DNA of 23,603 nucleotides from a virus. Every line of letters starts with the position of its first letter. Positions within the stretch are counted from its first letter, which is position 1. The notes under the pieces are model-generated. The model saw only the letters and a program-made list of their open reading frames with translations. It ran no database searches and had not been told where the DNA came from. The stretch lies in IMG/VR virus record IMGVR_UViG_3300004461_000415, positions 1 to 23,603 of that record; one strand, 5' to 3'. A program made the position numbers and the translations under genes. Shown here piece by piece: positions 1,502-5,196 of this stretch.

Positions 1502-1891
1502 ATGAAGAAATTAACTAGAAGTAAATTAATTAAAAAACTAGATAGTGTATTTAGCAAATACATCAGAAGAAAAGATGCTATTGATGAGGTAGCAAAATGT
1601 GTTACCTGTGGTGTAGAAAGACATTGGAAAGAGTTACAATGTGGACACTTTCAAAGCAGAAGCCATTACTCCACTAGATGGGATGAGTTAAATGTAGGTG
1701 TGCAATGTATCAGTTGCAACATCTTTAAAAATGGGCAACAATACCTTTTTAGTAGATACCTAGATAAACACTATGGAGAAGGCACATCAAATGAATTGTT
1801 TCTAAAATCTCAAACATTGGGAAAATTTACCACAAATGAAATTGAAGAGATGATTAAAAAATATAAAAATTTGCTAGATCAGTTAGATTAG
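1502..1891 (+). CDS. ninG: NinG/Rap-like HNH recombination endonuclease
   Basis: 129 aa resembling the lambda NinG (Rap) family, which acts on recombination intermediates (Rap is a structure-specific junction endonuclease). Seen here: zinc-type cysteines CVTC (33-36), the family segment QCGHFQSRSHYSTRW (46-60) with C47 and H49, the second pair C69/C72 (QCISC), then NGQQYLFSRYLDKHYG. Length and motif order match the family. It opens the recombination/replication block that includes an ERF annealing protein, an exonuclease and a resolvase-like nuclease. The spacer upstream holds a hairpin and a G-quadruplex motif; the promoter of a putative sRNA overlaps its last codons. Confidence 0.85.
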   Translation: MKKLTRSKLIKKLDSVFSKYIRRKDAIDEVAKCVTCGVERHWKELQCGHFQSRSHYSTRWDELNVGVQCISCNIFKNGQQYLFSRYLDKHYGEGTSNELFLKSQTLGKFTTNEIEEMIKKYKNLLDQLD

Positions 1892-1900
1892 TTATCTTTG
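1870..1900 (+). promoter_or_regulatory. Host-type promoter of a putative small RNA
   Basis: TTTG at 1870-1873 and TATCTTTG at 1893-1900 are separated by exactly 19 nt, a perfect match to the Bacteroidota consensus TTTG-N19-TAnnTTTG. Transcription should begin near 1907. It overlaps the 3' end of the ninG-like gene. Confidence 0.7.
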
Positions 1901-1906
1901 AAGGGT

Positions 1907-2007
1907 AAATAAACTGTGGTGGTATATTTTATAGGTAGAGCAAGATCGAAAGATTCCCTGCCTAATATCTGTTCGAAAGGGGAAAATTAATTTTTTCCTC
2001 TTTTTTT
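1907..2007 (+). ncRNA. Putative phage small RNA, about 100 nt
   Basis: A free-standing transcription unit: a perfect host-type promoter ends at 1900 and a strong terminator ends at 2007, with no ATG between. The RNA can fold into a hairpin with TAGGTAG (1932-1938) pairing CTGCCTA (1958-1964, one G-U). Inside it, a short ATC/GAT stem (1945-1954) is capped by a GAAA tetraloop. A palindrome TTCGAA lies at 1972-1977, then the terminator stem. GGTAGAGC and GTTCGAAA resemble tRNA D- and T-arm sequences, but no cloverleaf forms. I do not recognise an RNA family. Confidence 0.5.
1979..2007 (+). terminator. Rho-independent terminator
   Basis: GGGGAAAA (1979-1986) pairs with TTTTCCTC (1993-2000; one G-T) around a 6 nt loop, followed by seven T (2001-2007). 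It ends the putative sRNA. Confidence 0.75.
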
Positions 2008-2017
2008 GTTTAAATAG

Positions 2018-2048
2018 TTTGTTATTAAATAAAAGTTTTATATCTTTA
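2018..2048 (+). promoter_or_regulatory. Host-type promoter
   Basis: TTTG at 2018-2021, 19 nt spacer, TATCTTTA at 2041-2048. The leader carries AATCAAACAAAC before the ATG at 2080, typical of Bacteroidota. The -7 box and first transcribed bases (2041-2065) are almost identical to 5161-5185 at another promoter of this window. Confidence 0.75.
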
Positions 2049-3477: not shown

Positions 3478-3502
3478 GGGGGATTAAGTTCCCCCTTTTT
3501 TT
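3478..3502 (+). terminator. Rho-independent terminator
   Basis: GGGGGA (3478-3483) pairs with TCCCCC (3490-3495) around a 6 nt loop, followed by seven T. It sits after the SSB-like gene and before the ATPase gene at 3519. Confidence 0.75.
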
Positions 3503-3518
3503 ATAAATTACACACCAC

Positions 3519-4328
3519 ATGACAAACGAACAGTTGCAACTTATTGATAAGTTGTGTAAAATAGATACCACAGAAAAAGTAGATTATCCTCCACTAGCAT
3601 TGTCTTTTGGTGACAAGGTTATTCAAAGTAAAAAAGGTAATATAGTTGTTGAAATACCTCTTGGAACTTTAGGAAATTTTTCCTTTATCCAAGCACCTCC
3701 CAAAAGCAAAAAATCATTCTTTGTTAGTTTACTTGTTTCAGCGTATTTAAGGAGTAACAACTTTGTAGGCAACATTAAAAGCCACAGAAGGGATGAAAAA
3801 GTTTTACACTTTGACACAGAGCAAGGCAAATATCATGCGTCATTAGGATTTAGAAGAGTAACAGAGATGTGTGGTGTTACTGATGGTTATCATCCTTATT
3901 TCCTTAGAACACTAGGGTATGATCAAAGGATTGATTTTATAGAGCATTGTTTAAAAAATTACAGAAATACAGGTTTAGTTGTTATCGATGGAATTGCTGA
4001 TCTTGTCGCTGATGTAAACGATATAGAACAAAGTAATAATTGCGTTCAGAAATTAATGAAGTGGAGTAGTGACTATAATTGCCACATAATAACTGTGATT
4101 CATAGCAACTTTGGGACTGACAAACCAACCGGGCATTTGGGTTCTTTCTTGGAAAAAAAGACAGAAACACAAATATCACTTGAGAAGAATACAGTACACG
4201 AAGATCAAGTAACTGTCAGTTGTAAAAGGAGCAGAGGATTCCCTTTTGAAACATTCTCGTTTAAAATCAATAACTTTGGCTATCCCGAATTATTAGATAG
4301 CATTTATGATCCCCTCAAAAACACTTGA
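3519..4328 (+). CDS. RepA/RecA-like AAA ATPase (AAA_25 type), probable replication helicase or loader
   Basis: 269 aa. The RecA-type core is visible: a P-loop at residues 59-66 (APPKSKKS), a Walker B strand GLVVIDGIADLV near 152-163, and an IITVIHSNFG segment near 190 typical of the sensor strand. The P-loop lacks both usual glycines but keeps the catalytic Lys-Ser; such variants occur in Bacteroidota RepA-like proteins. The likely role is DNA unwinding or helicase loading in phage replication. The terminator just upstream suggests partial separation from the ERF operon. The 3' end overlaps the sigma-like gene by 23 bp. Confidence 0.75.
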   Translation: MTNEQLQLIDKLCKIDTTEKVDYPPLALSFGDKVIQSKKGNIVVEIPLGTLGNFSFIQAPPKSKKSFFVSLLVSAYLRSNNFVGNIKSHRRDEKVLHFDTEQGKYHASLGFRRVTEMCGVTDGYHPYFLRTLGYDQRIDFIEHCLKNYRNTGLVVIDGIADLVADVNDIEQSNNCVQKLMKWSSDYNCHIITVIHSNFGTDKPTGHLGSFLEKKTETQISLEKNTVHEDQVTVSCKRSRGFPFETFSFKINNFGYPELLDSIYDPLKNT

Positions 4329-4785
4329 AAAAATATTTAAAAAGAACAATCAATGGATTGAAATTGTCCAATCATTTGGTTGCAATCGTGACACATCACA
4401 AGACATTGTTCAAGAGATGTACATTAAGGTTCAGAAGCGTTTAGAGAAAGGCACAGACATCCAATATAGTGAGGATGACATAAACTATTACTATATTTTT
4501 AAAGTGCTTAGATCGCTTTTCTTGGACTTAAAAAGAAAGGAATCAAAAGTAGAAATAGTAGAGTTGGATGTTGTGAAAAATTGTGATGAAGATATTGATT
4601 ATGAAAGTGCTTATGGATTAGTAGTAGATGAGATTAATGAATTGTTTTGGTACGATAGAAAGATTTATGAGATTGTTGATGGGGGAATTAGCATCTCAGA
4701 GTTAAGCCGACAAACAAACATCAGTTACTATTCACTTTACAACACATACAAAAGAGTTAAAACCAAATTAAAACATTTGATATGA
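4306..4785 (+). CDS. ECF-like RNA polymerase sigma factor
   Basis: 159 aa with the two-domain layout of a group IV (ECF) sigma factor. Region 2-like: RDTSQDIVQEMYIKVQKRLEKG (about 28-49), matching the acidic helix that contacts core polymerase, and YIFKVLRSLFLDLKRKES (63-80), matching the -10-recognition helix. Region 4-like: a helix-turn-helix GISISELSRQTNISYYSLYNTYKRVKTKL at the C-terminus. Divergent, but the pattern and spacing fit. It is the natural candidate to direct host polymerase to the CGTTATAT-N3-TATGA elements before the virion operons; that link is inference. ATG 4306 lies 23 bp inside the previous gene. The next gene is coupled by ATGA. Confidence 0.75.
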   Translation: MIPSKTLEKIFKKNNQWIEIVQSFGCNRDTSQDIVQEMYIKVQKRLEKGTDIQYSEDDINYYYIFKVLRSLFLDLKRKESKVEIVELDVVKNCDEDIDYESAYGLVVDEINELFWYDRKIYEIVDGGISISELSRQTNISYYSLYNTYKRVKTKLKHLI

Positions 4786-5137: not shown

Positions 5138-5168
5138 ATTGCATTATTAAATTTTTTGTTTATATTTA
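5138..5168 (+). promoter_or_regulatory. Host-type promoter
   Basis: ATTG at 5138-5141, 19 nt spacer, TATATTTA at 5161-5168. The -7 box plus downstream bases 5161-5185 differ at one position from 2041-2065 of the promoter before the gene at 2080. It should transcribe the gene block from 5197 onwards. Confidence 0.7.
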
Positions 5169-5196
5169 CAATATTATTAATCAAAACAGAACAGAT

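Follow-up and report, generated by a model that had tools for sequence, protein, structure and literature searches.

Among the small phage RNAs that pair with the mRNA of a developmental gene of the phage are sar of P22 and OOP and aQ of lambda, and sar interferes with translation initiation (PMC12197685). The RNA described here is likewise proposed to pair with an mRNA of its own phage. However, sar, OOP and aQ are antisense to ant, cII and Q, whereas the present RNA lies on the same strand as its proposed target, 1.5 kb away, and would use a short, imperfect seed; a cis-encoded antisense RNA of the OOP/sar type was rejected on these grounds. The hosts also differ. StxS, which RNase E processes from a short transcript, works through base pairing, a ribosome-binding site being among the places where it pairs (PMC7873438). 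Like the present locus, StxS and lambda 6S (pR' short transcripts) have a constitutive promoter and a short terminated RNA near the nin region, but here early genes with their own promoter come next. The 24B_1 RNA of Stx phage Phi24B, a temperate phage of E. coli, is a 20-nt processed product directed at an antirepressor gene (PMC12197685). For this RNA, too, repression of a gene of the same phage has been proposed; its size, target and host set it apart from the RNA of the current study.

In Bacteroides, sigma-ABfr promoters drive the sRNAs GibS and FopS, each of which has a single-stranded seed at its 5' end and a hairpin as terminator (PMC11697453). The present RNA shares this layout, but GibS and FopS are chromosomal and have a metabolic role, and FopS is in Rfam while the phage RNA matches no Rfam family. 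To our knowledge, no phage sRNA has been characterised in marine Bacteroidota phages. For an RNA family absent from Rfam, comparison gives a structured RNA, a specific target, and a seed and site that change together; if the function proposed below is true, gene expression in these phages would be under the control of a trans-encoded antisense RNA.

Gene order and anatomy of the locus

The order of genes in the window (the whole stretch of virus DNA analysed, 23,603 bases) is that of a Bacteroidota-type phage: M15 endolysin, small lysis-region genes, ninG (PF05766), the RNA segment, small ORFs, erf (PF04404), SSB-like, AAA_25 ATPase, sigma-70-like, methylase, terminase and structural genes, those without a profile match being named from position and translation. 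By terminase comparison the closest isolates are the Nonlabens phages P12024L/S (59% identical); the ninG-RNA unit was looked for before their erf genes and not found.

Table 1. Features of the small RNA locus and of its proposed target in the window.
Feature	Position	Strand	Basis and remarks
ninG (NinG/Rap), constant upstream neighbour of the RNA	1502..1891	+	PF05766, E 1.6e-13; PHROG 5034
Bacteroidota-type promoter, TTTG-N19-TATCTTTG	1870..1900	+	overlaps 3' end (last codons) of ninG; -7 box kept in relatives
Small RNA	1905..2007	+	conserved unit after ninG; model R1 gives the window 90 bits; 5' end estimated from promoter position
Seed 1, CTGTGGTGGTATATTTT, conserved 5' motif, predicted partly single-stranded	1914..1930	+	pairs with AAA gene start
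Covarying hairpin, TAGGTAG/CTGCCTA, with inner helix GATC-GAAA-GATT	1932..1964	+	predicted fold, covariation
Motif 2, TATCTGTT, family-invariant; possible second pairing site	1966..1973	+	
Intrinsic terminator	1975..2007 (stem 1975-2004)	+	12-bp hairpin and U-run; stem 100% paired in 12 sequences
Second promoter, serving downstream early genes, TTTG-N19-TATCTTTA	2018..2048	+	sequence; similar site in relatives
Proposed target site, CACCACA, its last base being the A of the AAA-gene AUG	3513..3519	+	leader comparison, duplex scoring
AAA_25 (RecA/RepA-like) ATPase, proposed target gene	3519..4328	+	PF13481, E 2.4e-10; top ortholog group
Sigma-70-like gene, 23-nt overlap with AAA gene	4306..4785	+	SigZ model, E 6.8e-6, under its curated cut-off

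Between ninG and the early genes, positions 1870-2007 comprise an ATG-free RNA of about 100 nt with a promoter before it and a terminator behind it (Table 1). A sequence-only reading had called this a stand-alone small RNA gene driven by the best promoter match of the window. The promoter is present where it was placed, and the match is exact, but the window has three exact matches against 1.78 expected, so that, taken alone, the match at 1870-1900 is near chance level. The locus is taken as real because of conservation (TAnnTTTG, stem covariation, flanking motifs and terminator; see below), the promoter match by itself being insufficient. That the segment simply terminates the late lysis-ninG operon, its promoter and hairpin having arisen by chance, would agree with this count, but is very improbable in the face of a conserved -7 box, a covarying hairpin and near-invariant unpaired motifs.

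Other parts of the sequence-only reading were borne out: the RNA without ATG, ending in a 12-bp terminator-like hairpin with a U-run (1975-2004); the GAAA-loop hairpin (1932-1964), which is the predicted fold; and a promoter of its own for the next gene, a promoter-like TTTG-N19-TATCTTTA being found at 2018-2048. Compared with shuffles, the predicted fold reaches a z of -1.8 for the whole RNA and -3.5 for the hairpin segment 1932-1964. Within this fold the seed is only partly unpaired (UGUGG, 0.50-0.97). At sequence level the segment thus has its own promoter, its own terminator and no conserved ORF, as is characteristic of a base-pairing sRNA. Early expression, also proposed previously, would fit the host-type promoter.

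Several other identities were considered. ARAGORN detected no tRNA or tmRNA in the segment, and a covariance search of Rfam 15 gave nothing above gathering threshold and, at E values up to 10, chance-level matches only. The tRNA-arm-like pieces pointed out earlier (GGTAGAGC and GTTCGAAA) do occur in the window but are unconserved in most relatives. The proposal of a tRNA, tmRNA or other host-RNA mimic, for which these two pieces in the window alone speak, is rejected because they are not conserved; there is also no tRNA-like fold, and with comparison already contradicting it this identity is extremely improbable. A leader peptide was rejected, the GTG-started frame varying from 6 to 25 codons with neither length nor sequence kept and no conserved peptide, as was a replication origin, the GC-skew showing no change near the RNA.

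Conservation in related phages

Relatives were gathered from sixty NinG relatives and by a DNA pattern scan of viral contigs. About 20 contigs of marine Bacteroidota-type phages (16 distinct sequences) carry the unit, always directly after ninG and in the order promoter, CTGTGGTGGTATATT, hairpin, TATCTGTT, terminator, second promoter. Examples of class A contigs are IMGVR 3300025806_000337 and 3300002488_000048; among the records searched there was no class A isolate. Two further pattern matches (L090, L091) were judged to be chance and set aside. TAnnTTTG is invariant in all 16 distinct relatives; the pattern required it, yet the unfiltered set shows the same. The promoter spacer shows no conservation beyond that of ninG coding. 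Outside the phages, a pattern scan of 84,980 cellular species gave two matches, in Flavicella (inside a gene) and Paenibacillus, both judged to be chance, and a search of 395 Bacteroidia genomes with model R1 returned nothing but a sequence resembling the terminator, located behind a host gene.

The row of promoter, structured RNA and terminator behind ninG could also be a cis-acting leader with a conditional terminator, as in lambda pR'-tR' or HK022 put, where a short RNA is the default and antitermination leads into the early genes. Lambdoid phages have a constitutive promoter and a terminator near the nin region. In Stx phages the short transcript goes by the name StxS (PMC7873438). We consider a leader of this kind unlikely: a conserved second promoter lies directly behind the terminator, so that read-through is not needed, the spacer of the first promoter is unconserved beyond ninG coding, and the conserved complementarity described below would be left unexplained.

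Across the family, CUGUGGUGGUAUAUU and UAUCUGUU, the motifs left unpaired, hardly vary, and seed 1 is identical at 15-16 of its 16 positions in nine of the ten relatives compared, L019 being the exception. The hairpin between the motifs behaves very differently. Compensatory changes, for which the sequence-only reading had suggested examining 1932-1964 in related phages, were found on both sides of all nine aligned pairs of helix 1, and 96% of cells pair, in an alignment that leans towards structure because it was fitted to model R1. The covariation score of helix 1, 0.367 against 0.06-0.11 for slid structures, is subject to the same bias, but the margin is still wide.

The hairpin sequences fall into unrelated types: TAGGTAG..CTGCCTA in the window, GAGTA..TACTC in L008 and L009, TTTAGATAG-ACTC-CTATCTAAA in L016, TTAACTAG-ACTC-CTAGTTAA in L018, TTGAGTAG..CTACTCAA in L078, and AAGGGGTAG..CTACCCTT in L019. 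Every one of these stem sequences beats its shuffles in folding (z -2.6 to -5.0), and the long forms (window, L019) contain a further, inner helix with a GAAA or GCAA loop. The window and L009 agree at 73% of third positions, counted at NinG residues that are conserved, but in the stem region at only 3 of 38 aligned positions; their seed, motif 2 and terminator hardly differ. L078, with a NinG 60% identical to that of the window and third positions 51% identical, matches the window RNA at 16/16 seed positions, 8/8 of motif 2 and 26/29 of the terminator, but at 6/44 of the stem region. Turnover of the stem is faster than that of synonymous sites, and the pattern of a shape kept while its letters change indicates that the hairpin is real and its RNA structure under selection. 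The family is filed here as a phage-encoded sRNA of the base-pairing kind, new and without an Rfam entry.

Complementarity to the start of the AAA-ATPase gene

The seed sequence CUGUGGU is complementary to ACCACA(G), which lies at the AAA-ATPase start codon of the phage itself (3519 in the window). When duplexes of the 5' unpaired RNA segment were scored against every ORF start in each phage, the AAA start ranked 1-3 among 20-46 ORF starts in all ten phages where it was present and scorable. The AAA ortholog group had a mean z of -3.63, the next best of the 15 groups (each in at least 5 of 8 phages) -0.58. Out of 1000 seed permutations, none gave an AAA pairing as good as the real one, and two gave any group that extreme (family-wise); seed columns were permuted jointly, so relatedness stays in the test, and because the phages are related these figures speak for specificity, not for many independent origins. 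Across the whole window contig, the AAA site ranks 38 of 4715 sliding windows as seed complement and is best only among gene starts.

Relative to the AAA start, the site runs from about -10 to +1, with a shift of a few bases upstream in L078 and L136, and the prediction leaves it unpaired (0.81-1.00). Its duplexes with the seed span only 7-12 bp. A terminator on one side and the AUG on the other leave little room for the AAA leader, and every class A version of it has ACCACA or CCACAG, at a variable distance from the AUG: ACACACCACAUG in the window, UUACACCACACAUG in L016, AUUACCACAGAUG in L009, UUGCCACAGAUG in L008, AAUAUACCACACAUG in L019 and AACCACAGUUAUAUG in L078. In class B phages the RNA lacks UGUGG and the AAA leader lacks the ACCACA/CCACAG motif. 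The divergent seed of L019, without one GGU repeat, matches its own target, AAUAUACCACA, by 12 Watson-Crick pairs, at -16.1 kcal/mol compared with -9.1 to -11.9 on the targets of others. Class A seeds as a whole average a z of -2.69 on AAA starts of their own clade versus +0.17 on those of other clades, although the matches are not independent events because the phages are related. A conserved seed is therefore accompanied by a conserved complementary target, as is typical of base-pairing sRNAs, and together with promoter and terminator conservation and stem covariation this supports the earlier suggestion of a stand-alone sRNA gene with a regulatory role.

Motif 2 has a candidate second contact just inside the AAA gene, which is given little weight because this region encodes conserved residues. 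In several phages the seed pairs as well with the erf start region (2664-2690, AUGGAUAUAUCACUAAACCAC), which may be a second target or a coincidence of coding. The first downstream gene and the 'KEKL' gene in clade B also scored well in places as candidate targets.

A further phage and other clades

As a further test, viral contigs were searched with AAA proteins only (80-locus scan) and the readable leaders inspected. The CCAC motif was confined to class A members already known and to two further contigs, L117 and L136. The L117 contig ends before ninG. L136, picked only for ACCACA in its AAA leader, carries the sRNA directly after ninG (58 bits, E 1.8e-9), with a hairpin of yet another sequence that folds at z -4.0. 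This successful prediction adds to the case for the target, which, with its co-changing seed and site, is directly testable in a two-plasmid reporter.

An sRNA acting mainly on host RNAs or on a host RNA-binding protein, with the AAA match incidental or secondary, would be in line with seed and motif 2 being conserved as sequence, and Bacteroides has global sRNA-binding RRM proteins (PMC11697453). This seems improbable, however, as the AAA match covaries with the seed and correctly singled out L136. Moreover, the 14-nt seed complement was found in 4 of 199 Flavobacteriaceae genomes, a set that may not include the host, and this is close to the frequency of the reversed control pattern.

In five other contigs (L119, L127, L130, L133, L134) the slot after ninG is occupied by another short RNA, made up of GUUCUGUUCAUUUGUCUUUG and a terminator. 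These RNAs rank 1-3 on their own AAA first codons, but foreign targets fit too. In L139, L145, L168, L172 and L178 there is an RNA after ninG, with no support for a fit to the AAA start. The post-ninG RNAs of other clades may be different things.

Proposed function

Since the unpaired stretch matches the start of a gene of the phage itself, the RNA is probably a switch blocking that gene. The best explanation, and in our judgement a likely one, is that this phage base-pairing sRNA represses translation of the AAA-ATPase and, by coupling, of the sigma-like gene. Computation supports the structured RNA family and the complementarity to its target. From anatomy and conservation, we infer that host RNA polymerase would transcribe the sRNA of about 100 nt from the strong promoter that overlaps the last ninG codons and would stop at the terminator of the sRNA itself. 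The conserved 5' segment CUGUGGUGGUAUAUU would then pair with ACCACA at or overlapping the AAA start codon, 1.5 kb downstream, and occlude ribosome entry, a block of initiation being the simplest reading of how AAA-ATPase translation might be lowered. The AAA and sigma-like genes overlap by 23-38 nt in all eight phages, so the effect would probably spread to the sigma-like gene. The variable hairpin may serve as structural spacer and stabiliser, its shape mattering and its sequence not. Repression as the direction of the effect, the coupling and any timing are likewise what we infer.

More tentatively, and rather doubtfully as a whole, the sRNA could be a developmental timer. On entry a host-sigma promoter would give rise to the RNA, which would restrain the ATPase-sigma operon until the phage sigma-like protein or host shut-off cut host-promoter activity, the RNA then falling and the operon being freed. 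Seed and target would have co-changed across clades, with the hairpin between the invariant motifs outpacing synonymous sites, possibly through template-switch palindrome conversion.

A terminator lies between the SSB-like and AAA genes (3478-3518), shortly before the AAA start codon, in the window and most relatives; the AAA operon must therefore be reached by read-through or from another promoter.

Other features near the locus

Directly upstream of the ninG start codon is a perfect GC-rich hairpin, GCACCCC-CTCAAA-GGGGTGC (1477-1496), without a U-run and preceded by two G-runs (about 1444-1461); translational control of ninG by this hairpin is possible. Downstream of the RNA, the early promoter and leader TATCTTTACAATATTATTAATCAAA (2036-2065) recur with 90% identity 3.1 kb further on (5156-5185). 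Behind the sRNA, the region 2049-2256 has an A-rich leader, AATCAAACAAACAAAAACAAAATG, that is kept among the phages while the first ORF is swapped, and looks like an accessory-gene slot.
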